Positions 1 to 45,636 of a stretch of 64,000 bases of DNA are shown one piece after another (the stretch's first letter is position 1; each line of letters opens with the position of its first letter). Both the position numbers and the translations under genes were made by a program. Source of the stretch: a virus. The stretch covers positions 1 through 64,000 of IMG/VR virus record IMGVR_UViG_3300020196_000021, one strand, 5' to 3'. The notes under the pieces were generated by a model. That model was not told where the DNA came from and searched no databases. It was given only the letters and a program-made list of their open reading frames with translations.

Positions 1-484
1 CAAGACGGAATCCCCCAATGAGATCATCTTCATCAGTTTCGATAGTAATGTTAACACGGATAAGTTCTCGTTTTAGTTGGGCACATGCTTGTTCAACACT
101 TACAGTTTTACCATTACCAGAAAGACCCGTGATGAAGGTGGGATAGAAAAGACGCGATTGAATAATCTTTTTAATATCGGTAAAATTGCCAAATTTAACA
201 AAAGAACTATCAATCTCAGGAATAAGATTTTGCTGCACAGTTGGTTCTACAGAAGGAGATTTGAAAGTTTGTTCCAGTTTTTCTTGAACAGTCAAGTCCC
301 AACGACCATGACCAACTTTGTAGTTATCAAGACGTTTTGAAATAGTGGGATAAGACACATCAAAATAATCTGCTGCTGCATTAATAGCATCACCGCCGAA
401 GGCATCGCCGTAACTTTGACGAATAAAGTTAAGGAGTTCTGCAATTTCAATGTTGTGATTGCGGGACATTTGTGAGTTGTTCAT
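1..484 (-). CDS. cobS: CobS-like AAA+ ATPase (partial, C-terminus outside window)
   Basis: The minus frame opens with ATG at 484 and runs off the left edge, giving 161 codons. Residues 1 to about 70 look like a helical DNA-binding or adaptor region. A Walker A motif, GLSGNGKT, follows near residue 120, and then an ETDEDDLIGG segment typical of CobS/MoxR-type AAA+ ATPases. The bacterial family supplies ATPase rings for cobaltochelatase. T4-like cyanophages commonly carry a homologue annotated as a porphyrin biosynthesis protein. An in-frame ATG at 469 is an alternative start. The cobT-like gene lies 60 bases upstream on the same strand, so the two probably act together. No chelatase catalytic subunit (CobN) is visible here. 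A role in host tetrapyrrole or cobalamin metabolism is inferred. Confidence 0.8.
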   Translation of the reverse strand, partial: MNNSQMSRNHNIEIAELLNFIRQSYGDAFGGDAINAAADYFDVSYPTISKRLDNYKVGHGRWDLTVQEKLEQTFKSPSVEPTVQQNLIPEIDSSFVKFGNFTDIKKIIQSRLFYPTFITGLSGNGKTVSVEQACAQLKRELIRVNITIETDEDDLIGGFRL

Positions 485-544
485 TGTTGACTTTAATAGT
501 ATAAGAGGAAGATGAGGAAAATGGCTCCTCTGTGTGCCAGATCG

Positions 545-2683
545 TCAAGCGACCACAGTAATGAAGGATGAGAGGATCTTTTTATTCAAGCACTTGCTCT
601 TAAGAGATTTCTGAAATGCACTTTTAATTTGTGAATTTGTTGCATTCTCATCCACAATAAACTGTTCACTTTGATTAAGTGAAGTAGAGGAAATACCATA
701 AAGAACATGATATCCACTGTCCTCAATAATAAACGACCTTTGTTTATTCCAAATCTTACGATATTCATCGTAACTTATCTTAGGTTCATGAGTCCAGTAA
801 AATGAACTAACCTGACTACTAGGAAGAATACGAAACCCAATAAAGTTAACGTTAGGGTAGTTATCACGAAGATTGTTGATGAGAGTTTTAGTGACATTGT
901 GTTCCTTTTTAAATGTTTTGTAGATATGACCTGTCTTGCGATCACGAAGACAGCACATACTTGTCACTCCTGCCATACCAATCATGTCTTCATCAGGACG
1001 ATCCCAACGCTTAACCGTAGTATAACGTGCAAGACCAGCAGATTCCCCATCTGTCAGGATTATAACATTTGCTTTTTGAATAGCATTTTGTTTGATAAAT
1101 TCGGGGATCATTTTTTTTAATGCAATCAGAGTTTCATTCAACGGAGTCCCAGAAAGACCAAGACCAGAAGGAATTATAGAGTATCCCTTGTTTTCAGAAT
1201 ATGCAATACGCCACATATACTTACATTGATTTTCAAAATCTTTAGTATTGCAGCGATGCGAAATCAAATTCAAAAGACGGAAAGATTCGTGTACAACGAT
1301 ATCTCCTGGTCTCTTCTCTTGGATTTCAATTTTATCATCCGCACATCTCCCTACAAGCGAGTTATGAATACCAGCAAATTCATAGGTAAAGGCATATACC
1401 TCAAAAGGAATTTGTACTTTTTTACAGAACCAGACAAGATTAAGAAGTTGTTTTACAGTATCCAAGATAACATCTGACATAGAACCAGACCAATCAAGAA
1501 TAAAAATGAGTCCATGATTCTTACCATCAGGAATAACATTAATCTTTTTAAAAAGATCATCATTAAATTTATAAGTATGAAGTTTGGTGCAATCAAGTAC
1601 TCCTGTACGTGCTGTAGAAGTACGTGAATATGCATCTGCAGATTTCTTGCATTCAAATTCTTTTACAAGATAGTTTACACCATTAATAGATTCTTTATAA
1701 AAATTTGAATATGCTAAATCAAACTGCTTGATCGCATCAGCATAGATAGGTATATCATTATAGAACTGATTACAATGATCACCAAGTAATTTATAATCAA
1801 CAACAATATTATCAAGTTTTATATCTGGAACTTCTACGTAAATTGTATCCTGAGTATAGTTATCAATAAAATCTTTTTGGTTTTCTTGAAATGCTTTATC
1901 AGTAACAGAAGAAAGATCATCGTTATTATGACCACCACTATTATCAACTTTATCTTGTTTATCTTGATTTAATTTACCAGTTGATGATAAAGCTTCTTCA
2001 TTTTTAGATTCAGATTTTATAGTGGTATCATTTGAAACACTAAACTCTTCTTCAGATTGCTGCTTTTCCATCTCAATAGATTCTGAAGACCTACCAGCAG
2101 ATGCAGAAGTATTATCAGATTGAATATTAATATTTTCTTGCTTTTTATTGTTCTTTGTATAGTTATACACATCAAGAGCAATCTGTTGAACTTCTTCAAA
2201 AGTTTCTGCATTTTCCGTTCGCTCAATAAACTCTTGCTCTTGCTCATTAAATTCAATGCAAGAAAAAGAACCAATCTTAAAGTAAAGATTAATGCGATCA
2301 ATCAAATTTATTTTATTAATCTCATCTTCTTTAATACAAAAGAAATTATCATCATTAAGTTCTTGGTATCCACGATAAAAAGTTTTAGAAAATCCTGGAT
2401 ACTTCCTCTTCATCATTTTCTCAATACGTGCATCTTCAATGACGTTAATATAATCTTTAGGGATAGAAAAATCCCAATCTGAATTAGGAGTAAAAAGAGC
2501 ATGACCTACTTCATGCCCAACAAGAAGATCGTAAACAGTATTAGAAGCACGTTGCCAATTGGGGAGGATTAGAACACGACGGTCCACATCAAACGATGCA
2601 GTGCTAACGTTCTTGTGTTCAACAATCAGGTTTTCAGTAGCAAGCAATTTAGCAAGATTGCCTTTAACTTCTTGGTTGTACAT
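545..2683 (-). CDS. cobT: CobT-like protein with HExxH motif and C-terminal VWA domain
   Basis: This 712-aa protein has three parts. The N-terminal region has HEVGH (residues 57-61) followed by an acidic ED pair near 83-84, the layout of a zinc metalloprotease-like site. A polar, low-complexity linker rich in Ser, Glu, Asp and Lys spans about 184-255. The C-terminal von Willebrand A domain has the MIDAS motif D397-x-S399-x-S401, a later SGTPLNE threonine and a TDGES aspartate. This is the architecture of cobaltochelatase subunit CobT, which pairs with the AAA+ subunit CobS, and the next gene downstream is cobS-like. The preceding transcript is stopped by a strong terminator, so the pair probably has its own promoter, which I could not identify. 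The function in infection is inferred; a MoxR/VWA-like chaperone role is an alternative. Confidence 0.75.
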   Translation of the reverse strand: MYNQEVKGNLAKLLATENLIVEHKNVSTASFDVDRRVLILPNWQRASNTVYDLLVGHEVGHALFTPNSDWDFSIPKDYINVIEDARIEKMMKRKYPGFSKTFYRGYQELNDDNFFCIKEDEINKINLIDRINLYFKIGSFSCIEFNEQEQEFIERTENAETFEEVQQIALDVYNYTKNNKKQENINIQSDNTSASAGRSSESIEMEKQQSEEEFSVSNDTTIKSESKNEEALSSTGKLNQDKQDKVDNSGGHNNDDLSSVTDKAFQENQKDFIDNYTQDTIYVEVPDIKLDNIVVDYKLLGDHCNQFYNDIPIYADAIKQFDLAYSNFYKESINGVNYLVKEFECKKSADAYSRTSTARTGVLDCTKLHTYKFNDDLFKKINVIPDGKNHGLIFILDWSGSMSDVILDTVKQLLNLVWFCKKVQIPFEVYAFTYEFAGIHNSLVGRCADDKIEIQEKRPGDIVVHESFRLLNLISHRCNTKDFENQCKYMWRIAYSENKGYSIIPSGLGLSGTPLNETLIALKKMIPEFIKQNAIQKANVIILTDGESAGLARYTTVKRWDRPDEDMIGMAGVTSMCCLRDRKTGHIYKTFKKEHNVTKTLINNLRDNYPNVNFIGFRILPSSQVSSFYWTHEPKISYDEYRKIWNKQRSFIIEDSGYHVLYGISSTSLNQSEQFIVDENATNSQIKSAFQKSLKSKCLNKKILSSFITVVA

Positions 2684-2708
2684 AAGTAAGGTTCCGTTTT
2701 GGATGTAC

Positions 2709-2861
2709 CTATACTACAAAAAAAGACCTCCCTTTGCGGGAGGTCATGTGACACTTTTTGAACTGGGCGAGTCGCTTCTTCGCCTGACGCATCGCCTGAG
2801 GTTTCAGATGACGCTTTTGATCTTTCTTAGAATGGTGTTGCCAATTAGGTAGTTGTGCCAT
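2709..2861 (-). CDS. Small basic protein, 50 aa, unknown function
   Basis: The frame starts at ATG 2861, overlapping the 3' end of gp46 by 17 bases, and stops with TAG at 2709-2711. The product begins MAQLPNWQHHSKKDQKRH and is very rich in Lys, Arg, His and Gln, with no Asp or Glu beyond the first third, so a nucleic-acid-binding role is possible but unproven. Its last eleven or so codons are the terminator hairpin and its T-run. There is no strong Shine-Dalgarno sequence; translational coupling to gp46 is plausible. It could be a chance frame, although its composition and its tight join to gp46 favour a real gene. Confidence 0.5.
   Translation of the reverse strand: MAQLPNWQHHSKKDQKRHLKPQAMRQAKKRLAQFKKCHMTSRKGRSFFVV
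2718..2745 (-). terminator. Intrinsic terminator of the gp55-gp47-gp46 operon
   Basis: An 8-bp perfect stem (GACCTCCC/GGGAGGTC, 2725-2732 with 2738-2745) and 5-base loop are followed on the minus strand by seven T residues (2718-2724). It lies between gp46 and the cobT-like gene and is also inside the last codons of the small gene at 2709-2861. Confidence 0.9.
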
Positions 2862-4578
2862 TTGACTGAGTGGGTTTGGAAAAGTTTTTAACCTTTTTGA
2901 ACTCTATCACATTATCAAACTTATCGTGCAGCAGGTCCCCTTTGTGTGAGATGACGAACACATTGTTACCTTCTGTAATATTACGAAGGATTCCAATAAA
3001 CTCTTGAGTGCCATTACTATCTAGCGAACTATCAAATACTTCATCAAGAATTAAAAGATTTGTATTGACAGAATTTTTTAATTTAGCAACTTCTCTCCAA
3101 GTAAACAAAAGTGATAAATCAATTCTCATTTTTTCCCCCTCACTGAATGAAGCATAGGAAAACTCATCACGATATCTTGATTTAATTATTTCATTAAAAT
3201 TTTCATCAAGAGTAAAGTTAACATAAAATTCAAGTTCCCCCAAATACTTATTGATAAGATGATTCATGACAGGAAGATACTTCTTAATGATAGTAGATTT
3301 AACTCCATTATCTTTTAAAATATCAGCAACAATTTGATGATCTGCTTTTACCTTCAATGCTCTTCGGCATTCTTTTTCCTTTTCAATTCCAAAAGAAATT
3401 AAATCTTTTAATTTTTCTTTCTCTCTAAGTACATTACCATCATTGTTTTCAATAACAATAATTTCTTTTTTGAGATCTGCAATTTGCTTGGTCTTCCATT
3501 TAATTTCTTGAATACATGATTGCATCTTAGAATTTAAATTAGATATCTTTGTATTATTTTGATTGTAAGATATTTTAATTTTTTTAATAAGATCAATTTC
3601 ATTTTGAACTTCTTTCAAAATAATTTTATGAGATTGTATCTCATCTTCTGATAACTTTGTTTTATGTTGTTTCAAATGTTCATTTATATTTTGATTACAA
3701 GTTGGGCATACAGTATTTTCAGAAAAAAACTTATGCTCAGATCGTTTTTCTTTAATCTTACTTTCAGCAAAATAATATTTTTGGTTAAGACCATCAAATT
3801 GCTTATCAATAATATTAATATCAATTTGATCAGAAGTAATTAAATTAATTTCTTTATTAATATCATTTATAGATTCTTCTACTTGTTCAATCTCTTCTTC
3901 AAGGAATGAAACCTTATCATTTTTTTCATTGATATTTTGATTGCTTTGCTGCTTAAGATCATTAATAAATCTTTTCTGAACATCTACCTTTTCCTTAAGC
4001 AAGGAAATATCATAATTCAATTCAGTAACAACATCTTTAGATTGTTTAAGGCGTTCTTTTAGAATTGTATTCATTGTTGAAAAAATTCTAATGTCAAGAA
4101 TATCTTCGATGACCTCTCGCCTTCCTGCTGCAGGCAACTGCATAAATGGAACAAATGTAGAGGAACCCAATATAACGATTTGAGTAAAGGATTTGTAATT
4201 TAACTTAAGTATATTTTGTTCTAACCATTTTTGTTGATCAGAAGATGCTGATGCTTGATCTAAGATTATATTATTTTTATAGATTTCAAATATATTAGGT
4301 TTCATTCCCCTAATAACTTTCCAATTTATTTTACCAATAGTAAACTCAATTTCAACCACACAATCTCCTTGATTGATTGTATTGATGAGTTGTGGTTTGT
4401 TAATTTTTCTAAATGGTTTATTAAATAATCCAAAGCACAGTGCATCTAAAATTGTAGATTTCCCAGCACCATTCTCTCCAATAATTAAAGTTTTGTTGTT
4501 TGAGCACAAATCAATTGTAGTGAAGTTATTTCCAGTGCTAAGGAAATTCTTCCATTTAATAGTTTTAAATTCAATCAT
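2845..4578 (-). CDS. gp46: gp46 recombination endonuclease subunit (Rad50/SbcC-like ATPase)
   Basis: This 577-aa SMC-type ATPase pairs with gp47 to resect DNA ends for recombination-dependent replication and host DNA breakdown. Visible motifs are Walker A GENGAGKS (34-41), long coiled-coil arms, a zinc-hook CPTC (291-294), ABC signature FSEGE (478-482), Walker B LLILDEVFD (508-516) and an H-loop SHK (544-546). The frame is open further upstream to 4623, but ATG 4578 gives the MIEFKTIKWKNF start typical of the family and sits just after the stop of the DUF3110-like gene (4581). Length is close to T4 gp46 (560 aa). It is the last long gene of the gp55-gp47 operon. Confidence 0.95.
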   Translation of the reverse strand: MIEFKTIKWKNFLSTGNNFTTIDLCSNNKTLIIGENGAGKSTILDALCFGLFNKPFRKINKPQLINTINQGDCVVEIEFTIGKINWKVIRGMKPNIFEIYKNNIILDQASASSDQQKWLEQNILKLNYKSFTQIVILGSSTFVPFMQLPAAGRREVIEDILDIRIFSTMNTILKERLKQSKDVVTELNYDISLLKEKVDVQKRFINDLKQQSNQNINEKNDKVSFLEEEIEQVEESINDINKEINLITSDQIDINIIDKQFDGLNQKYYFAESKIKEKRSEHKFFSENTVCPTCNQNINEHLKQHKTKLSEDEIQSHKIILKEVQNEIDLIKKIKISYNQNNTKISNLNSKMQSCIQEIKWKTKQIADLKKEIIVIENNDGNVLREKEKLKDLISFGIEKEKECRRALKVKADHQIVADILKDNGVKSTIIKKYLPVMNHLINKYLGELEFYVNFTLDENFNEIIKSRYRDEFSYASFSEGEKMRIDLSLLFTWREVAKLKNSVNTNLLILDEVFDSSLDSNGTQEFIGILRNITEGNNVFVISHKGDLLHDKFDNVIEFKKVKNFSKPTQSNGTTT

Positions 4579-15102: not shown

Positions 15103-17817
15103 TTATTTAGCGATTGCTTCAGAGAATGAAATGCCAGTTCTTGTAGCAGTGAAGGTAAGAGTAATAAAGTTAATAGAACGAGCAGGTTGTATAAAGATGT
15201 CAGCAACAAACTCATTTCTGTCAATTACGGCAGAAGTATTGTTTGATCCATCGCAAACTAAGAGATAATCATAAAGACCTCTTCTTGCTTGAACATCTCT
15301 TAAGAATGGTTCAACAATTGCCTTAAATGAATTTCTTGTTGTTTCGTCGTTAATTTCAAAGAGTTGTGCTTTAGCAGCATTCTCAATTGCTCTTTCAAGA
15401 ATAAGGAATAGGCGACGAACATTAATTCTATCAAAGGCACTTGGAGTTGCGAGAGCAGTTTTATCTCCAAAGAGAACTGGTCCTTGACCTGGGAATGAAG
15501 CGATAGGATTAATTCGATTTGAATAAAGTTCATCTCTATCAACTTTATTTGGATTCCAAGCTAATTTTGCTGCTCCTTTGATTCCACCTCTGGTAAATCC
15601 AGCAGGAGAAAACCAAGGTTCTGCACTAATTGCACTATCTGCTACCAGTCCAGCAACATCACTATTGCATGGAATATAGCGATAGACATCATTCCATCTA
15701 TCATAAACATACTTGTAATTACAATCTAAAATAAGATATGAAGTACTAACAACATCTTTAAAGAATAATTTTAAGTTCTGTACAATATCTTGATTTCTCA
15801 GTGGTAAACCAGAAGATGCAATAATGTTTCCTTTATGTGGAGAAGCAAATGCAATACAATCTTTTCTATATGATGCAATACCAGCAATATGATTAATCTT
15901 TTGACGTGTCAAATCTGCAGTACTGCACCCAGGACCAACAATAAGATAATCAAGATCAACATTATCCAAATCTCTAAATTCATCATAAGCAGAGATAATA
16001 TCAGTAATAGATACTTCCCAATCGGTAGCACCATTTGCTAATGAATATGAAATAGATCCTTTTGGAGTAAATGTTGCGGTCCTAGAAGCATTTTCAAATA
16101 AGGTATCTCCAACGTAAATATACTCACTGGAATCTGAAACTATCTTTTTGTAATAATTGATTCCACCTTCTGGTCCTTTAGCATTGTTTGCTTTAGATGC
16201 ATAAGTATAAACTTCAAGAACAGTATCTTTTGATCCACTTATTCCACCATCTTCATCTACTACAGCAACGTGTATCGCATCTAACCCCAAAGAACTACCA
16301 TAGAATGCAGCAGCATCTTCAGTCGCTACTGGTCTTGCAGCAAGAGAATTCCATTTAATGGTAGAACCAGTATATAAAGTTTTTGCTTCATACCAAGCAG
16401 AACCATCATCTACTGATGCAATGGTAAGATTGGATTGAGTACCAATGTTAACAACGTCAGTTGTAGCAAATAATTGGTTTGATTCTGGATTTGGTACATA
16501 CTCATTGTTAGTATTTACAATAATAATGTGAACCGAAGTATAATTTGTCTCGCTTACTTTTACTGTGGAAACATCAATAACTTTTCCTTTTTTAGTACCA
16601 CTGGTTACGATATCTCCAACTAAAATGTTTGCATTTTCAGTTGACAATGTTAAACTTTGTTTTGGACCATTATCTATAACACAAACTCTTAAGTTATTGC
16701 CCCAAGCACCCTTTGTTCTACCTGCAAACAACCATCCAGAACTGTTGCCTAAGAACTGCGCTTCATAAACATCTGAGTTGTTGATTTTTACGGCTTCTGC
16801 TGCAATAGCAGCAGTTGCAGTGGCGGTTACACCTGGATCTGGGAAAGTAACTGTTAAGTTAGTAAAGTCACTAAAATTACCAAAGTTGGTAACCGTAACG
16901 TTAGTTACTGATCCATTACTAACTGTTGCAGTTCCTTGAAACGGAGTGGTTACTGTTCCACTACTACTAACTGTTATTGGATAACTTTGATTTACATCAT
17001 AGTTTGTACCACCACTGGTTACGGTAACTACAACGCCATTTGGTTGTGCAACTACAAGAGTTGGAGCGGTTGTATATCCAGTACCACCACTTAATACGAT
17101 TGATTGTATTTGACCATTTGCTACGGTTGCAGTAGCAGTTCCTCCAGTACCACCACCACCACTTACAGTGATCTGTGGTGCTGTCTGATAACCAGATCCT
17201 GCATTAGTGATATTAGCATTTCCAGTCAAATTGCCTCCAGAGAGGTTTCCCCCACCTGCCTCAGCTGTAGCTCTAGTTCCTCTTGCAACAGTTCCCAATG
17301 CTGTAACACCAACTGGAGAGATAGTAACTGATGGAGCAGAAGTGTATCCAGATCCAAGTTGTTCTACGACGATAGAAGATACTCTTCCTTGTGCGTTAAT
17401 TATTGCTCTTGCAGTTGCTTGAGTAGCACCTGGAGTAGTTGGAGCACCAACAGTTACAGTTGGAGCACTGACATACTTTCCATTTGTTGAAGCATTGTTA
17501 ACTGTAATTGCAGAAACGTAGTTACCTAATCTAGCAACTGAGTTAAATTGATTTGGGGTATCAATTCTTACGACTGAAAGTGTACCACCATACGAAAGAA
17601 AATTAGTAGCACTTAACCAATATTCTGCGTTTTCTTCTCTTGGTTCACCAAAGACATTAATAAGCTCACTTTCTGTTGAAATTAAAACTGGGTTTCCAAT
17701 TTCTCCTTTCTTAAAAGTTGCGGCAAAACCTGCAATATTATTAAGAGTAGCGTCAGCTCTACCGTTTGTAAGATCCTTTTCTTTAACAAGAATCCCTGGG
17801 GAGCGTAAAGTTGCCAT
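15103..17817 (-). CDS. gp18: gp18 tail sheath protein with a large repeat insertion
   Basis: This 904-aa contractile sheath protein is well over T4 gp18 length (659 aa). The N-terminal part (1-100, LRSPGILVKEKDLTNG) and the C-terminal sheath domain (RRLFLILERAIENAAKAQLFEINDE, LRDVQARRGLYDYLLVCD, NFITLTFTATRTGISFSE) are standard and contain the handshake strands. The extra length is an approximately 240-residue insertion (about 103-343) built of G-x-G-Y-T/x-A-P repeats rich in Gly, Thr, Ala and Val, which would be on the outer sheath surface. The same repeat is present in gp8 and the fibres of this phage. A perfect late promoter and a TAGGAGATAC ribosome-binding site precede it. It is followed by gp19. 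Confidence 0.95.
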   Translation of the reverse strand: MATLRSPGILVKEKDLTNGRADATLNNIAGFAATFKKGEIGNPVLISTESELINVFGEPREENAEYWLSATNFLSYGGTLSVVRIDTPNQFNSVARLGNYVSAITVNNASTNGKYVSAPTVTVGAPTTPGATQATARAIINAQGRVSSIVVEQLGSGYTSAPSVTISPVGVTALGTVARGTRATAEAGGGNLSGGNLTGNANITNAGSGYQTAPQITVSGGGGTGGTATATVANGQIQSIVLSGGTGYTTAPTLVVAQPNGVVVTVTSGGTNYDVNQSYPITVSSSGTVTTPFQGTATVSNGSVTNVTVTNFGNFSDFTNLTVTFPDPGVTATATAAIAAEAVKINNSDVYEAQFLGNSSGWLFAGRTKGAWGNNLRVCVIDNGPKQSLTLSTENANILVGDIVTSGTKKGKVIDVSTVKVSETNYTSVHIIIVNTNNEYVPNPESNQLFATTDVVNIGTQSNLTIASVDDGSAWYEAKTLYTGSTIKWNSLAARPVATEDAAAFYGSSLGLDAIHVAVVDEDGGISGSKDTVLEVYTYASKANNAKGPEGGINYYKKIVSDSSEYIYVGDTLFENASRTATFTPKGSISYSLANGATDWEVSITDIISAYDEFRDLDNVDLDYLIVGPGCSTADLTRQKINHIAGIASYRKDCIAFASPHKGNIIASSGLPLRNQDIVQNLKLFFKDVVSTSYLILDCNYKYVYDRWNDVYRYIPCNSDVAGLVADSAISAEPWFSPAGFTRGGIKGAAKLAWNPNKVDRDELYSNRINPIASFPGQGPVLFGDKTALATPSAFDRINVRRLFLILERAIENAAKAQLFEINDETTRNSFKAIVEPFLRDVQARRGLYDYLLVCDGSNNTSAVIDRNEFVADIFIQPARSINFITLTFTATRTGISFSEAIAK
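16789..17511 (-). repeat. G-x-G-Y-T repeat insertion in gp18
   Basis: This coding segment contains at least four degenerate copies of a unit of about 40-50 residues with the core GSGYTSAPSVTI, GSGYQTAPQITV, GTGYTTAPTLVV and variants. The units are separated by A/T-rich beta segments such as GTATATVANGQIQSIV. It separates the N-terminal and the main sheath domain. Confidence 0.75.
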
Positions 17818-38913: not shown

Positions 38914-41900
38914 TTATGCCAGTACTGTTTGTGATACTACTTTGACGTTATAAACTATAGTTGAAGATCCTGTAAGATCTGTTACTTTTATCGCTACATT
39001 ATTCGACCCATCTAATTCAGCTTCAACATCACATAAAACTACATCAGTATATATCTTATTACTTTCAGTATAAATGATATCAGATCCATTTGATTTGACG
39101 ATATATGATATTTCTGAATATTGTCTTCTAGAAATAGTAGAGTCATCGGAAATTTCAATCATAACCTTCCCAGAATATGATTGAGTATATGGAAATAGTG
39201 GTATTGAAGTTGAATTTCCAGATGCAGTATTAATTGTAGAAACACCAGATGCAATTCTTGAATCTTTTAAATTAAATTGTCTTAAATCTTTATCAAATAA
39301 TTTAATATAACTTGATGCTACATTTTGACCATATAAATTATTTACAAGAAATTCTCCATTAATACCAAATTTTATAAATTCTCTATATGATGAGGTTAAT
39401 GTAAACGATAGTCCACCAGAAGAAACTGCTGCTATTCTTGCTGCAGATCCATCACTGGTAAATTCGAGTATACTACTTCCAAGAATCAATTTATCAGAAT
39501 TGAATACTATATTTTGACCAGGGTTTGTGAACGTTAACTGACCATAAATGTTTCTTACATATTTTAATTCCGCTGTTCCATTTGCAAAATTATTTCCAGT
39601 AGTATTTGTTGGAGCAGTTGTGCCAAGTGTACCTGATTGCATAACCATGTACACATTGATTCCATAATAAATGAATACACTTGGTTGATTGCCTGTTGGT
39701 GCAGTTACTGTTCCACCAGAAGTCCATTCTGGAATTCCATTTATATCAGTAGCATCTATTGATGTTATTTTTTGCAAAACAATTTTATTCTGTTCAACCT
39801 GCATAGATTGAACACCATCATTTACAAATCGTATAATATTATCATCATCTCCTGGATTTAATTCTGCACTAATATAAGTATTTCCATCAACATCTCTTAC
39901 GCCACCAAGAGAAACAAAATAATTTCCATTAAAACCTTCAAATCTAGATTCATTTGTATTAAATCTAATTGCTCCTGCTCCAGGTGCAGGAGGTCTTTCT
40001 GCGGTGCTTCCAGATGGAACAACTAATGCTTTTGATCCACTAATTTCAACTAAAGCATTTGCAGAAATTACAAGATTGCCAGGAGTGATTTTATTAATTT
40101 GGTTATTAGTTATTGATAACGAATCATTAATATTAATACCTGAAGTAGTACTTACTTTTAATTGTTTTGAAGTTATAGATCCATCAATTGGATCAAGTTT
40201 AATTACATCTGTAGAAGTAGCAGCACCAAATTGATAGAAATATTCTTGTCCATAGAATCCTAAAGATGCAGTACCATTTGTAACTGTTCCAGTTGTATGG
40301 ATAGGTGCATTTATTCCAAAAGTACCACTGGCAGTTACTTCATAAAAATTAGATTGATGCTTTACATAAGATCCAGATTGCACTTGAGCATTTGCTGTCC
40401 AATTTGTATAAACTGGTCTAAATGAGTTTGGAAGGTAAATTTTATCTCCTTCTTCATATCCAATTCCTAAATTATTGATCTCAGTTACTGTTACTACTCC
40501 AATAGTTTCAACTCTAAATTTAAAACTAGTAGTTGGAACTGTTGATGGTATTGCCGCATTAGTTATTGTATCAACATATGTCATACTTGCGGGATCTACC
40601 GTGAGTAGATCAAATACCTGATATCCAGATCCGCCGTCAACTATTGTAATTGAAGTTACTTTTCCACCAACAACTTCAATGTCTGCTTTTGCGCCAGTTC
40701 CTCCAGTGGAAGTTCCAATTGTAGCAACTTTAAAATTAAATCCAGATCCACTAGTTAATGTTGATACTGTTAAAGTTGCACCACTACCAACGTTGGTTTC
40801 TAATACTTGTATTGTACCATAATACGCAGAATTATTTGCTGAAATATAATAATATGTACCTGGAATATTAGGTGTCCAAGTTATGACTCCAGATGAAGCA
40901 CCATTATTCGTAACACCTGCAACATTATAGGTCGGATCATATCCACTATATGCACCTAATTGAGATACAATATAAAATGCATTATTTACTAATCCATTTC
41001 CTGGAGCACTTACATCAAAAGTCAAATCATCAAATTTATTTACTGTTAATGTTGGATTTGTTCCTGTGGCAGAACCAGTAAAAACATAACCAGAAGGAGA
41101 AGTATCTGTTACATTATACGTGTATGTTGCAGTACTATTAAAACTAGTGGTATCTACTGATAAAGTATCGCCTGATACATATCCTGCTCCTGGTTGGTTT
41201 ATAGTTGCAGATGTTATAAGACCCCCAGAAACAGTAATATTTGCTGTTGCTCCTTGACCTAATGAACCAATATTAGTTAAAGTTACATTATTATAATTAC
41301 CGTTTGCATAATTTGATCCACCAGAAGTTATAGATAATTGATTAATTTGTGATCCACCTAAATTGGATACATTTGCAGATAATGTATCATTTACTGTGTA
41401 TCCAGATCCACCATTTGTTATTGATATATTTGTTACAGAACCAGAAGCAATAGTAACTGTTGCTTTAGCAAAATTTCCAGTTCCACCAGTCAATGGGACA
41501 TTTGTGTATGTTCCATTGATATAATTTGATCCACCATTTAAATTAGAAGTAGTTAATACTGAACCACCTGGAAGAACAGAATAAATTAAAGGAATATCTA
41601 CATAAGTTGCATCAGTATATCCAAAACCTTGTTCAGTAAGAATACCATCAAATGCAACAGTAACATCAAATCTTAATCCACTTCCACTTCCACCTAAAAC
41701 TTCTTGATTTGTATATTTTCCTAATTGATATGCTGAACCTTTTTGTATTGTTGGATCAGCAAAAGATACAGTTACAAAATTTGTTTTTTTATAAAAATCT
41801 GTTCTATCTGCAGAAAATCTTAATATTCTTCCTTGATCTCCAACAGCACTAAATTTGCCATGACCTTCTCCATACTCTGCAAAAAATCCTGTTCTATTCC

Positions 41901-44900
41901 ACAATGTAGAATGTGGATCTGCATCAAACTTTATAGATGGTTCAGTTACTGATCCAAATGATGCAACAATATTATTAAGTGCTTTTATATCTCCTTGTGC
42001 TCTAATATTGCCGTTTACTTCTAATTTTTCAGTATCATAGATGTTTAATGGATCACCAAGATCTAAATTTGATGGAAAACCAATAGCAACAAATGCGTTT
42101 TGCTTTTCACTAGCTAACCAAGTTGTATCTTTTGATTCTAAATTTCCACTAAATGTCGCTTTAGTTTCAAAAGATTGAATTTTTACATGTTCTAAGAAAG
42201 AAGTTATTTTATATTTTAAGAAATTATTAAATGGTCCAGTACCAAAATTTGACTCTGCAGCACTAAGAATATCATTTATATCATATTTACTTGTACCAAA
42301 ATCAGTTATTGTTACTGATGTTACTGCTGAATCGACAGAAGATACAGTATAAGTAAATCCACTACCACTTCCAAATGTACCAGTTAATACATTACCAACT
42401 TGATACCCTTGTCCAAATGATGTTATAACTACACTAGATACAGTTTGAGTCGTAATACTTGTAGTTATTGTTGCTACAGCACCAGTTCCAGTACCAGATA
42501 CATTTGCTAATTGAACAGTATATGTTCCAGGTATGTAACCACTTCCAGCATTTGATATTGATCCACCAGAAATACCACCACCAGTAACTACAATAGTCGC
42601 TTTTGCTCCAGATCCATTACCACCAGTTAAATCAACATTTGTATAAGTTCCTGCTGGATATCCTAATCCATCAGTAATAATACCAGCAAATTCTCCAGAA
42701 TATGTTGTGATATCATCATAAAATTTGGAAGATCCTGTGGTTGTAGATGTATTTACTGTAAGTGTTCCAATAGTAGCATTACTAATATTAGAACTATCAA
42801 TAGAAATACTTTGATTTGATACAATATTTCCACCTACAGTTATGTCACCTGTAAAATTAGTATTGCCAGTAATTTGTAAATCATCATTTACTTGTACTAA
42901 GCTATTTCCCTGAGCAGTTAATACTAAATTTCCAGTAGAAGTGCTAATTGTATTTGCATTTACAGAACCAATTCTAATGTTTCCAATACTAAGAGGAGAA
43001 GTTTGTACTAACCCAGTTCCTGATATTATTTGATTTGAAGAAAGTGTTAAATTACCAACATTAATTGAAGTTGGTAAAATCGTAGTAGCATTCCCTGCAC
43101 TTGAAACAATTAAATTATCAAATGTTGTTGTACTAGATCCAGATCCAGCAAAAGATACTGTTCCTTTTTCTTGATCTATAATAAATGTTGTTCCTACTCT
43201 AAAATCACCATTTTGGTCAACGCTTGTGAACAATGCACGACCATTATTAGTTTCAATTACTTCATTTGCCTGATTAACCTGACTAATATCATTATCTTCA
43301 TTTTTACCAGTACCAATATAACTAAAATTATGAGTAATACAATATAATCTTACTCCCTTTCCGTTTGCAGTAAGACCTCTTTCTCCATAAATTGAAGCTG
43401 ATCCAATTGAACGAAGTTCTGCACCAAATGCAGTGTAATCTGCCAAAGTTACAAAATTAGCAGTTCCACCAGCAGAAGTTCTAATATCTTGTGATGCAAT
43501 ACCTCCATCAATAATTTCAGTACTTCCATTCAATCCTTCAAATTGAAGAAGAAGAGAGGTATTGATACTAGCAGTAAATGCCGTTGTTGAAGGAGTAAAA
43601 GTTCCAGTATATCTAGATACTCCTTTTGAAATTCTTACTTCATCAATATATCCCTTATAAGCATATGCACCATTAGGATCTGCACCAATTCTAACTGGAC
43701 GTACAGGATAATTGTTTGTATCAGTATAAGTTGATCCAACTTGAGTTCCATTGATGAATAATCTTGTTGATGATCCTGATCTGGTTAAAGCAACATGGTT
43801 CCAAGCATTAAGAGTAACCGATCCAACAGGTCCAACTCTATAATTACTATTATAATAGAAGTATATCGCACCAGTGTCACTCTGACCTAAGATAATTCCA
43901 TTAGTATCACTAGTGGTAGTTCTAAAGTCAAAGATAGTTCTATATGAAGTAAACTCAGTAGGATATACCCAGCACTCTAATGCAAAATCTCCAGTTGCAC
44001 TAGTAGTTGTTGTACCAGCTGCTACATTAATCACACCAAACATATTTGTGTGATTTTGACACTGGTAATAATAAGTGCCAGGTGTTACTCCAGCTGTATT
44101 CCAAGTAATTGTTCCCGTTGTAGATCCATTATTTGTTATTGTGCCTGTTGTTGTTCCGTTACCTACACCACCACCAGTGCCTGTGATTTGTGCTGTCTTA
44201 ACCCAAAATGGATGACTGGCGCTAACGTTTACATTAAATACTAATATATCTCCTGCAACTACGTTGAGAGTTGGAGCAGTTCCACTTGCACTTCCAGAAA
44301 ATTGGTAATTATTTGTACTACCAGTGTTTGCAGTTACAGTATACGTATACGTTGTGCTTGCTGGTGGACTAGGATTACTTGCAGCTCCAAAGTTAAAATC
44401 AGAAGAACTTGCTACTGATAAGTAATCTCCAGTTCCATCTAATATTAAAGAACTATTACCAAATTTTTTAATAGCAGTACTAATTTGAGCATCACCATTA
44501 ACAATTACCTGCTTTGGAGTTAATGATGATTGTAACGCCTCAACAAAATTACCTGTTCCTTGACCAGTAAGGTAAATATATGTACCATCATTTTGATTAA
44601 TAGTACCAGATGCTAAAACAGTTGTACCGTCAGTATCATATTGAGTTATAGTATTACCAGCAGCAAATGTGCCAGACATACCATTGAATTTTAATCTTGC
44701 TCTTCCCTGACCAGCAAATCCTGTTCCGCCTGGATTTTCTCCAATAACGCTATCTGCAGCAAAATAAGTAAATGAATTTAACCATTCACATCTAGCACCA
44801 TTTTTTAAATATAATCCAACTGAATTAGGTACAACAAATGTACATTCATTAAATAATATAGATGCTTCTGCTGAATTAGTTGCAACTACTCCACCATCAA

Positions 44901-45636
44901 TTAATACGCCTCTTCCTGCATCTCCCTGTGCATATCCTCTTGGATCGGATCCAGTGGTTACACTACCTTTAGTAATTACAGAACAACGCTGAACATAAGG
45001 TCTTCTTCCTGAAACACTTATAGTATATCCAGATTTTGTTCTAAATGCATATCCAGTATCATTTACTGAATCATAATAAAAATCAGTAACTGTAATATTT
45101 TCTATATTACAGTTACTTTGAATTAAAAACGCATCTTTATTATTAGTACCAACTGTTGGTTTAATAAAAGTGGTTTTGAATCCAGCACCAGAAATTGAAA
45201 CCCCAACTGGAACTGTTAATGGAAAAGTTTCAGTATAAACTCCTGAACCCACAACGACAGTATCCCCATCAGTAGCATAATTATCAAGACAATATTTTAA
45301 TGAGGAAAACGCCGTCATTGGCGTTTTGCCCCATGAATTTGAACCAGTAGTAGAACCGTGTCTAGGATTTACAGAACCAAGTATTGCTTTGTCTGTTCCA
45401 TTTTTTGAAACATACCAAGTTTTTCCGACTCCATCAGTAATCAAAGATGAAAACATTGATGGAACAATGGTTTCATCGTTTGGATCTGCGTTTAGAACTT
45501 CTTGAATAGTACCATTATTATTTACAAATAATGTCCTATCAGCAATATTAAGAGCTACTTCTTTGTCGTAAAGATCAGAAGTCGTCGGTGCTGAGTTCGG
45601 TGTTAGGGATCTCTTTAACTTGATTCTGGTTGCCAT
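38914..45636 (-). CDS. Giant fibre with LamG, cupredoxin-like and beta-repeat domains, 2240 aa
   Basis: The N-terminal ATRIKLKRSLTPNSAPTTSDL is a widely shared attachment segment of cyanophage fibre proteins. Residues 65-300 look like a beta-helix (TWYVSKNGTD, GDTVVVGSGVYTETFPLTV). A LamG-like domain begins near 392 and is broken at about 418 by a cupredoxin-like domain (about 428-540). That domain has His475 and Cys526-x2-His529-x2-Met532, the ligands of a type 1 copper site. The LamG domain resumes at 547-700 (FALECWVYP, WNHVALTRSG, YIDEVRISKGVSRYTG). A second cupredoxin-like copy near 1500-1613 lacks all four ligands. The middle is G-x-G-Y-T shaft repeats. The C-terminal region is beta-rich and ends in VYNVKVVSQTVLA. 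A host-binding fibre is likely; any metal function is inference. Confidence 0.8.
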   Translation of the reverse strand: MATRIKLKRSLTPNSAPTTSDLYDKEVALNIADRTLFVNNNGTIQEVLNADPNDETIVPSMFSSLITDGVGKTWYVSKNGTDKAILGSVNPRHGSTTGSNSWGKTPMTAFSSLKYCLDNYATDGDTVVVGSGVYTETFPLTVPVGVSISGAGFKTTFIKPTVGTNNKDAFLIQSNCNIENITVTDFYYDSVNDTGYAFRTKSGYTISVSGRRPYVQRCSVITKGSVTTGSDPRGYAQGDAGRGVLIDGGVVATNSAEASILFNECTFVVPNSVGLYLKNGARCEWLNSFTYFAADSVIGENPGGTGFAGQGRARLKFNGMSGTFAAGNTITQYDTDGTTVLASGTINQNDGTYIYLTGQGTGNFVEALQSSLTPKQVIVNGDAQISTAIKKFGNSSLILDGTGDYLSVASSSDFNFGAASNPSPPASTTYTYTVTANTGSTNNYQFSGSASGTAPTLNVVAGDILVFNVNVSASHPFWVKTAQITGTGGGVGNGTTTGTITNNGSTTGTITWNTAGVTPGTYYYQCQNHTNMFGVINVAAGTTTTSATGDFALECWVYPTEFTSYRTIFDFRTTTSDTNGIILGQSDTGAIYFYYNSNYRVGPVGSVTLNAWNHVALTRSGSSTRLFINGTQVGSTYTDTNNYPVRPVRIGADPNGAYAYKGYIDEVRISKGVSRYTGTFTPSTTAFTASINTSLLLQFEGLNGSTEIIDGGIASQDIRTSAGGTANFVTLADYTAFGAELRSIGSASIYGERGLTANGKGVRLYCITHNFSYIGTGKNEDNDISQVNQANEVIETNNGRALFTSVDQNGDFRVGTTFIIDQEKGTVSFAGSGSSTTTFDNLIVSSAGNATTILPTSINVGNLTLSSNQIISGTGLVQTSPLSIGNIRIGSVNANTISTSTGNLVLTAQGNSLVQVNDDLQITGNTNFTGDITVGGNIVSNQSISIDSSNISNATIGTLTVNTSTTTGSSKFYDDITTYSGEFAGIITDGLGYPAGTYTNVDLTGGNGSGAKATIVVTGGGISGGSISNAGSGYIPGTYTVQLANVSGTGTGAVATITTSITTQTVSSVVITSFGQGYQVGNVLTGTFGSGSGFTYTVSSVDSAVTSVTITDFGTSKYDINDILSAAESNFGTGPFNNFLKYKITSFLEHVKIQSFETKATFSGNLESKDTTWLASEKQNAFVAIGFPSNLDLGDPLNIYDTEKLEVNGNIRAQGDIKALNNIVASFGSVTEPSIKFDADPHSTLWNRTGFFAEYGEGHGKFSAVGDQGRILRFSADRTDFYKKTNFVTVSFADPTIQKGSAYQLGKYTNQEVLGGSGSGLRFDVTVAFDGILTEQGFGYTDATYVDIPLIYSVLPGGSVLTTSNLNGGSNYINGTYTNVPLTGGTGNFAKATVTIASGSVTNISITNGGSGYTVNDTLSANVSNLGGSQINQLSITSGGSNYANGNYNNVTLTNIGSLGQGATANITVSGGLITSATINQPGAGYVSGDTLSVDTTSFNSTATYTYNVTDTSPSGYVFTGSATGTNPTLTVNKFDDLTFDVSAPGNGLVNNAFYIVSQLGAYSGYDPTYNVAGVTNNGASSGVITWTPNIPGTYYYISANNSAYYGTIQVLETNVGSGATLTVSTLTSGSGFNFKVATIGTSTGGTGAKADIEVVGGKVTSITIVDGGSGYQVFDLLTVDPASMTYVDTITNAAIPSTVPTTSFKFRVETIGVVTVTEINNLGIGYEEGDKIYLPNSFRPVYTNWTANAQVQSGSYVKHQSNFYEVTASGTFGINAPIHTTGTVTNGTASLGFYGQEYFYQFGAATSTDVIKLDPIDGSITSKQLKVSTTSGININDSLSITNNQINKITPGNLVISANALVEISGSKALVVPSGSTAERPPAPGAGAIRFNTNESRFEGFNGNYFVSLGGVRDVDGNTYISAELNPGDDDNIIRFVNDGVQSMQVEQNKIVLQKITSIDATDINGIPEWTSGGTVTAPTGNQPSVFIYYGINVYMVMQSGTLGTTAPTNTTGNNFANGTAELKYVRNIYGQLTFTNPGQNIVFNSDKLILGSSILEFTSDGSAARIAAVSSGGLSFTLTSSYREFIKFGINGEFLVNNLYGQNVASSYIKLFDKDLRQFNLKDSRIASGVSTINTASGNSTSIPLFPYTQSYSGKVMIEISDDSTISRRQYSEISYIVKSNGSDIIYTESNKIYTDVVLCDVEAELDGSNNVAIKVTDLTGSSTIVYNVKVVSQTVLA
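40797..41136 (-). other. Degenerate cupredoxin-like domain copy
   Basis: This encodes TYTYNVTDTSPSGYVFTGS through IPGTYYYISANNSAYYGTI. It aligns with the 44017-44355 domain (shared YxFTGSA/S-G, GTYYY and Y/F-G-x-I), but the ligand positions read Asn, Ser, Asn and Tyr in place of His, Cys, His and Met. Confidence 0.6.
44017..44355 (-). other. Cupredoxin-like domain with intact type 1 copper ligand pattern
   Basis: Residues 428-540 of the 2240-aa fibre begin TYTYTVTANTGSTNNYQFSG and include GDILVFNVNVSASHPFWV and GTYYYQCQNHTNMFGVI. The four putative ligands are His475, Cys526, His529 and Met532, the same Cys-x2-His-x2-Met spacing as in amicyanin. Confidence 0.65.

Follow-up and report, generated by a model that had tools for sequence, protein, structure and literature searches.

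Could a phage tail protein carry a type 1 (blue) copper site, and what might such a site do there? This question is raised by the window, that is, the whole stretch of 64,000 nucleotides of virus DNA analyzed here, in which an ORF on the minus strand (38914-45636) encodes a protein of 2240 residues. A first-pass annotation had described this protein as a tail fibre and had assigned to it a cupredoxin-like domain with a complete set of amicyanin-type copper ligands. The 'tail fibre' label was approximate and held only in part: residues 1-420 (44377-45636; all features given below are also on the minus strand) match cyanophage 'baseplate wedge subunit' families in PHROGs (phrog_32294, phrog_13163, phrog_1469 and phrog_19601), and matches elsewhere in the protein are to virion structural or tail fibre families. 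We refer to it here as the carrier, a tail/baseplate structural protein. Genes scanned in its neighborhood are of T4-like kind (portal, major capsid protein, scaffold, terminase, sheath, baseplate wedge) and also include very long fibre-like proteins. The major capsid protein shares 64.4% identity with its counterpart in Synechococcus phage S-CREM1, and the virus, whose whole record comprises 74,961 bases, is best explained as a relative of the T4-like cyanophages. Similar domains had been suggested to be widespread in marine viral sequences. The word 'marine' may not apply to the window phage, because an identical domain occurs on three contigs from IMG datasets 3300020109, 3300020197 and 3300021091, which are freshwater datasets (Lake Tanganyika). 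Separately, residues 93-260 of the tail sheath protein (15103-17817, 904 aa) match tail-fibre/head-closure families (phrog_5342, phrog_460) and are read as a fibre-like insert in the sheath.

Identity and predicted fold of the domain

The domain occupies residues 428-540, which correspond exactly to window positions 44017-44355, with the motifs ASHP from residue 473 and YYYQCQNHTNMFG from residue 522. Its predicted ligands are His475 (44212-44214), Cys526 (44059-44061), His529 (44050-44052) and the axial Met532 (44041-44043). The domain bounds, the motifs and the ligand residues are those proposed in the first-pass annotation, and all of them proved correct. A family profile of 14 relatives recovers the domain in its own record at E 3.9e-38, the window sequence being itself one of the rows. 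Compared with solved structures, the same profile finds plastocyanin 1bxu best (E 6.5e-6) and amicyanin 2gb2 at E 6e-5; in the alignment, the domain ligands fall on the known ligands of plastocyanin and amicyanin, and the claim of amicyanin-type Cys-x2-His-x2-Met spacing is upheld by the comparison with amicyanin. A larger profile of 88 diverse copies picks up pseudoazurin, plastocyanins, nitrite reductases, amicyanins and rusticyanins.

The fold itself is a model prediction. AlphaFold, run on the 88-copy alignment, returned nine strands with a pLDDT of 92.3 and a pTM of 0.86. Foldseek of this model against the PDB gave 87 matches at E<=0.001, and all 50 of those listed were cupredoxin-type copper proteins. 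VIA-align placed it on residues 24-137 of 2dv6 (Z 10.5, rmsd 3.3, 98 aligned) and on rusticyanin 2cal (Z 10.2, rmsd 2.6, 98 aligned). A prediction lacking the cupredoxin fold had been named as a result that would refute the assignment; the fold is present, and the claim of a cupredoxin-like beta sandwich stands on the model, the fold searches and the profiles together. In the numbering of the model, the ligands lie at positions 51, 102, 105 and 108 among strands 40-46, 53-56, 96-102 and 109-115: the first His is just ahead of strand 53-56, the Cys ends the penultimate strand (96-102), and the second His and the Met are found in the loop preceding the last strand. The four residues are thus at cupredoxin ligand places, but their closeness rests on strand layout only; distances are inferred, without coordinates.

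Single-sequence searches are much weaker. With the single domain sequence, phmmer found nothing in the PDB better than E 0.26. The window domain alone also scored below the gathering cut-off of Pfam PF00127 Copper-bind (12.9 against 21.2 bits), below that of the At5g54830-like domain PF25489 (15 bits, E 0.025, against 27 bits) and below the cut-off of the NCBIfam plastocyanin model TIGR02656 (17.6 against 87.85 bits). PF00127 matches 11 of the 14 relatives at E<=0.1 (best 4e-5), and its cut-off is passed by two other carriers, L062 (25.9 bits) and L143 (23.1 bits). These sub-threshold scores point to a divergent family. Kinship in sequence and in predicted fold nevertheless identifies residues 428-540 as a cupredoxin domain in which the type 1 ligand set is intact.

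The domain shares with the blue copper proteins amicyanin and plastocyanin (PF00127) the cupredoxin fold and the His, Cys, His and Met ligands, and with amicyanin also the Cys-x2-His-x2-Met ligand loop. It differs in that those proteins are soluble electron carriers, whereas the phage domain is a module of large tail proteins, and in that the first His is followed by Asn in plastocyanin, amicyanin and pseudoazurin (where alignments resolve it) but by Pro in the phage domain. Among phage families, the C-terminal ends of phrog_9158 and phrog_677 match the domain (E 1.7e-25 and 2.2e-16). The latter is labelled baseplate wedge tail fiber protein connector; neither has a copper or cupredoxin label in PHROGs, and the rest of each protein is unlike the window carrier. 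As a matter of fold likeness only, without ligand data, giant-virus 'Beta-sandwich proteins' (Marseillevirus-like and Pithovirus-like; A0A481YVH3, A0A481Z6J5 and others) matched the model in BFVD at Foldseek E 1e-7 to 3e-6.

Conservation and spread of the ligand site

Poor conservation of the four ligands had been named as a second possible refutation. Copies were kept out of the alignment if they had under 75 matched positions or were more than 85% identical to one already included. The loci of the window, of the isolates and of the virus's own record were also left out, giving 90 copies. These became 88 when one window-identical copy was swapped for the window sequence and two loci were omitted, one for a poor match (L005:7794-8123) and one whose contig stops before the Met (L135:2858-3163). 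All four ligands are present in 83 of the 88. The first His, the Cys and the second His are each found in 85 copies and the Met in 83, so that the four positions are near-invariant although identity to the window copy drops to 25%, and the assignment was not refuted. The Pro that follows the first His is found in 86 of 88. Losses comprise two copies that differ at the Met only (Asp, Lys) and three that differ at all four positions: L089 (one position being a gap), L138, and a second cupredoxin copy within the window protein itself. This second copy, which had not been noticed before, covers residues 1501-1613 (about 40798-41136; profile E 5.4e-14), and its ligands are replaced by Asn, Ser, Asn and Tyr.

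It could be objected that the Cys lay within the search pattern behind most of the viral loci in this alignment. For that reason a second scan was made with two patterns from the N-terminal half (one containing the first His, neither any other ligand) and scoring by a ligand-masked profile. The complete set HCHM was found in 76 of 89 distinct copies (108 copies, 80 loci). The remainder, in which a dash marks a position not covered, comprised three -CHM, two H---, two HSHL, two S--- and one each of ----, NSNY, Q--- and -SEM. Downstream losses are therefore seen in four copies, namely the two HSHL (L190, L191), NSNY and a half-copy with Ser-Glu-Met (L180). Nine further copies leave at least one of the four positions uncovered, and in three of these the first ligand is replaced, by Gln in the remaining half of the split L180 copy and by Ser in a second ORF of L190 and of L191. 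A wider count with the ligand-masked profile took in 161 distinct of 199 copies. HCHM was complete in 81 of 97 in the virus group, the others being six -CHM, five H--- and one each of TSSA, NSNY, GG--, HCHD and G---. In the genome group it was complete in 56 of 64, with two H--- and one each of HCHK, HCH-, Y---, TSNQ, -CHR and -CHM. The viral scans keep the best 80 loci only (of 325, of 523 and of 86). Resolution in the tree of the 88 copies is poor, with stars on 18 of its 85 inner branches; the ligand-less rows stand apart in it, which suggests separate losses as far as so weak a tree allows. By the NG86 method dN is lower than dS in six of six pairs. For the window cassette described below against its counterpart in L004, dN/dS is only moderately under 1 (0.52 by NG86, 0.72 by YN00). 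In L078, L180 (526/532-aa ORFs), L074, L076 and L085 the cupredoxin was matched solely as two separate halves; these copies look insert-split, and L180 lacks most ligands.

Named phages were screened with the 88-copy profile in 20 records, of which ACG-2014j and ACG-2014i had been picked because they had matches; the other 18 were 13 T4-like cyanophages and five controls. A non-plastocyanin copy with all four ligands is present in nine of the 13 (P-SSM2, P-SSM4, Syn9, P-SSM7, Syn33, S-SM1, P-HM1, P-HM2 and S-SSM7). No match was obtained in this screen for S-PM2 (NC_006820), S-SM2 or S-RSM4, nor for the controls T4, KVP40, pelagiphage HTVC008M and the podoviruses P-SSP7 and Syn5. Syn1 gave two weak matches, of which the aligned one (L361) lacks the site; L324, L327 and L363 are extra matches, likewise weak. 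In Syn9 and S-SM1 the domain forms the C-terminus of a protein annotated 'baseplate wedge tail fiber protein connector', and the carriers of P-SSM4, Syn33 and P-SSM7 resemble it by length and layout, in both of which they agree with it. P-SSM2 has two copies in a 'tail spike protein' and also carries the domain in a 'phage tail fiber-like protein'. Purified virions of S-SM1 contain 41 proteins (PMC3037559). The profile also matches P-SSM2 petE and a petE-like place in Syn9, whose identity is unconfirmed; it found no match in S-RSM4, where petE is listed (PMC2984593), and is thus an incomplete plastocyanin detector. P-HM2 (NC_015284) has two copies, the locus given being 97146-99128. According to PMC7112961, P-HM2 fails to adsorb in darkness and P-SSP7 can infect without light; of these two only P-HM2 carries the domain, and S-PM2 lacks it as P-SSP7 (NC_006882) does.

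The claim that the domain is widespread in viral sequences held, as judged by pattern and profile scans of IMG/VR and by the isolates. Relatives are encoded in 325 of 342 pattern-matched IMG/VR stretches and, with the N-terminal-half patterns, in at least 523 of 599. Of 111 distinct carriers, 58 have the domain at the C-terminus and 33 have it internally, and in the other 20 a contig end leaves its place undecided; 37 of the 83 carriers complete at both ends measure 650-710 residues. Eight of the 11 virus-contig carriers scanned with Pfam are subtilases (PF00082; seven of ten in one set, plus L022). A crude check for triad motifs found the GTSMA-type motif in eight of eight and HG[TS] in four of eight. 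Peptidase_S8 was absent from the window's own record in a scan of that whole record, which may be a fragment. In L022:7362-9566 and L200:2194-4257 the cupredoxin lies within the Peptidase_S8 domain; the other scanned carriers have it at the C-terminus or close by. The viral copies are best explained as one family of phage-borne cupredoxin modules, carried on baseplate/fibre connectors, fibre proteins and phage subtilases.

Of the 62 relatives in GTDB genomes, 61 are titled Bacteroidota and one Euryarchaeota. The latter (L097, PBPH01000083.1), from a metagenome-assembled genome, groups with virus locus L081 with support 100/97; it could be a viral contig that was binned wrongly. Bacterial carriers are either long, repeat-bearing proteins in which the domain is mostly C-terminal, or small ones of about 140-150 residues with little else. 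The small Bacteroidota proteins (L101:4812-5255, L144, L111 with two neighbouring ORFs, L099 and L102) consist of a signal-like N-terminus and the cupredoxin, and are candidate stand-alone copper proteins of the same family. The tree is too poorly resolved to show whether transfer went from phages to Bacteroidota or the other way.

The cassette within a LamG domain

The cupredoxin domain interrupts a lectin-like LamG (Laminin_G_3) domain, which the first-pass annotation had not remarked on. Pfam PF13385 matches from residue 541 onward (E 2.7e-23), and the first LamG strand precedes the insert. The first part covers about residues 386-418 (44383-44481), assigned by similarity to LamG relatives without an insert, and the remainder about residues 547-703 (43528-43998), supported by the Pfam match and by ConA-like fold matches up to Z 16.3. 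For modelling, a composite alignment of 8 LamG and 28 cupredoxin rows was used; another with many LamG rows was set aside because MAFFT had misaligned its cupredoxin rows. The composite model of residues 380-705 is of moderate quality (pLDDT 74.6, pTM 0.59) and matches pentraxin-like or lectin-like domains, best of all 8pvq (Z 16.3, rmsd 3.1), with 169 residues aligned between model residues 10 and 322. As a model prediction judged by the first and last aligned residues only, this supports, without proving, that both flanks belong to one LamG domain around the insert.

A sister contig, L225, lacks the insert. Its positions 1-3007 equal window 47388-44382 at 99.8%, with seven mismatches of which three are within the last 11 bases, and its positions 3000-3441 (442 bases) equal window 43999-43558 at 100%. 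Since these flanks abut in L225 without an insert, the window carries 390 extra bases (43992-44381), exactly 130 codons in frame. The ends of this cassette carry an imperfect 8-mer, identified from the window against the L225 and L004 junctions: TGGAGCTG at the left in the window (44382-44389), and TGCAACTG both at the right in the window (43992-43999) and in L225. The same cassette occurs in L004, in a different protein, at 86% DNA identity over 405 bases and with TGCAACTG at each end. The filled form was found in three further contigs; one contig has the empty junction. A scan with the 3' junction returned 15 stretches, four of them with the cassette (the three kin contigs and that of L004); the remaining 11 were rejected, being an unrelated small ORF. 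Because the site occurs both empty and filled, and because L004 has the cassette in a different protein, the cupredoxin is shown, as regards presence and absence, to be a mobile in-frame cassette. The short loop found here in 36 uninserted LamG relatives would favor gain of the cassette over its loss, but this is only a possibility and is not settled.

Possible roles on the phage tail

Folding, redox contact with the host surface and attachment had all been offered as functions in the first-pass annotation; these were neither upheld nor refuted and remain inference, as they were said to be. Copper binding by the domain is likely, but it is inferred and no metal-binding data support it directly. 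In the reading that we favor, copper would be taken from the lysing host or from the water and would lock the ligand loops and stabilize the sandwich, and the outer face of this compact, displayed module would help the tail protein to engage the host envelope, by analogy with the presumed role of Ig-like and lectin-like inserts. Phage structural proteins also contain Ig-like and other beta-sandwich inserts, mobile modules thought to aid attachment; these are not known to have such a ligand set, and the phage cupredoxin is akin in sequence to copper proteins. Type 1 copper is usually buried, fully coordinated and tightly held, which makes direct metal-mediated sticking to the host unlikely. Stabilization of a displayed module is the most economical proposal, because the domain accompanies lectin-like, fibre, connector and protease domains and because it is sometimes kept without ligands. 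Taken jointly, the identity of the domain, copper binding and some accessory role at the tail surface are a combination that we hold by a modest margin. Given bound copper, the specific role in copper-stabilized adhesion, inferred by analogy, could equally well be right or wrong. Several results weigh against this reading: the sub-threshold Pfam and NCBIfam scores, the Pro in place of Asn, the moderate dN/dS and the ligand losses.

Among the alternatives, a redox device has the most to be said for it, though we consider it unlikely. Electrons would pass between the type 1 site and either the host surface or oxidants and reductants outside the cell, and this exchange would gate tail action; adsorption might, for example, depend on whether a photosynthetic host is lit or on its redox state. 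Type 1 sites of solved relatives mostly serve electron transfer, and P-HM2, which does not adsorb in the dark, has two copies where the dark-infecting P-SSP7 has none (phenotypes from PMC7112961). Against this, the two phages are a myovirus and a podovirus, so their contrast is confounded, and no redox partner is known in the particle. Moreover, adsorption of cyanophages to WH7803, the host of S-PM2, is reportedly light-dependent, S-PM2 reportedly being one of these phages, and yet S-PM2 gave no match. The domain as the cause of light-dependent adsorption is accordingly left as a weak candidate.

A metal-free beta sandwich, in which the four residues are retained for folding or packing and the particle holds no copper, is also improbable. 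It is favored by the persistence of ligand-less copies, one of them within the window protein, and by the many beta-sandwich inserts of phage tails. Retention of some such copies means that a ligand-free form is tolerated, as would be expected of a purely structural module too. It is opposed by the near-invariance of His, Cys, His and Met at such low overall identity, by the three losses that strike all four positions together, and by a spacing in the Cys/Met loop identical to that of amicyanin. A bolder reading joins several claims: working blue-copper centres would sit on the virion exterior of T4-like cyanophages and their aquatic relatives, at the baseplate/fibre joint and on fibre proteins, as well as on phage subtilases, their redox or copper state would switch host engagement, and they would have spread among unrelated proteins as microhomology-flanked in-frame cassettes. 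As a joint claim it is doubtful.

Much less likely still is a copper bait or scavenger, in which copper on the particle draws it to a host copper-uptake receptor or shields the virion from copper. The 'Ferrojan Horse' idea of iron in phage tail fibres (e.g. PMC11705849) offers a precedent, but type 1 copper, buried and tightly held, would be a poor bait. A phage plastocyanin gene serving photosynthesis of the infected cell is all but ruled out: some cyanophages do have petE, and that of P-SSM2 is found by the same profile and shares the fold and a copper-protein nature, but it is a stand-alone metabolic gene of 345 bp, whereas the window domain is embedded in a 2240-aa structural protein and scores far below the plastocyanin cut-off. 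The copper-stabilized accessory module remains our preferred, if inferred, reading.

In the open-access literature searched, with hits judged by title or abstract, no cupredoxin or blue-copper domain was found described in phage tails. The first-pass annotation knew of no characterised copper-binding phage fibre. Two comparative papers on T4-like cyanophages (PMC2984593, PMC3037559) name plastocyanin as petE in the passages bearing on it, and the words 'cupredoxin' and 'copper' occur zero times in the main text of the latter. Within the limits of that literature, the fold is known, the family is divergent and its tail-protein setting was not found described. The empty and filled alleles, in which a whole domain has been gained or lost in frame between near-identical phages, allow modular tail evolution to be observed directly. 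Should the domain bind copper, blue-copper sites would be part of phage tails and would place metal, and perhaps redox chemistry, at the first contact between virus and host, and ligand mutants would allow the cause of light-dependent cyanophage adsorption to be tested.
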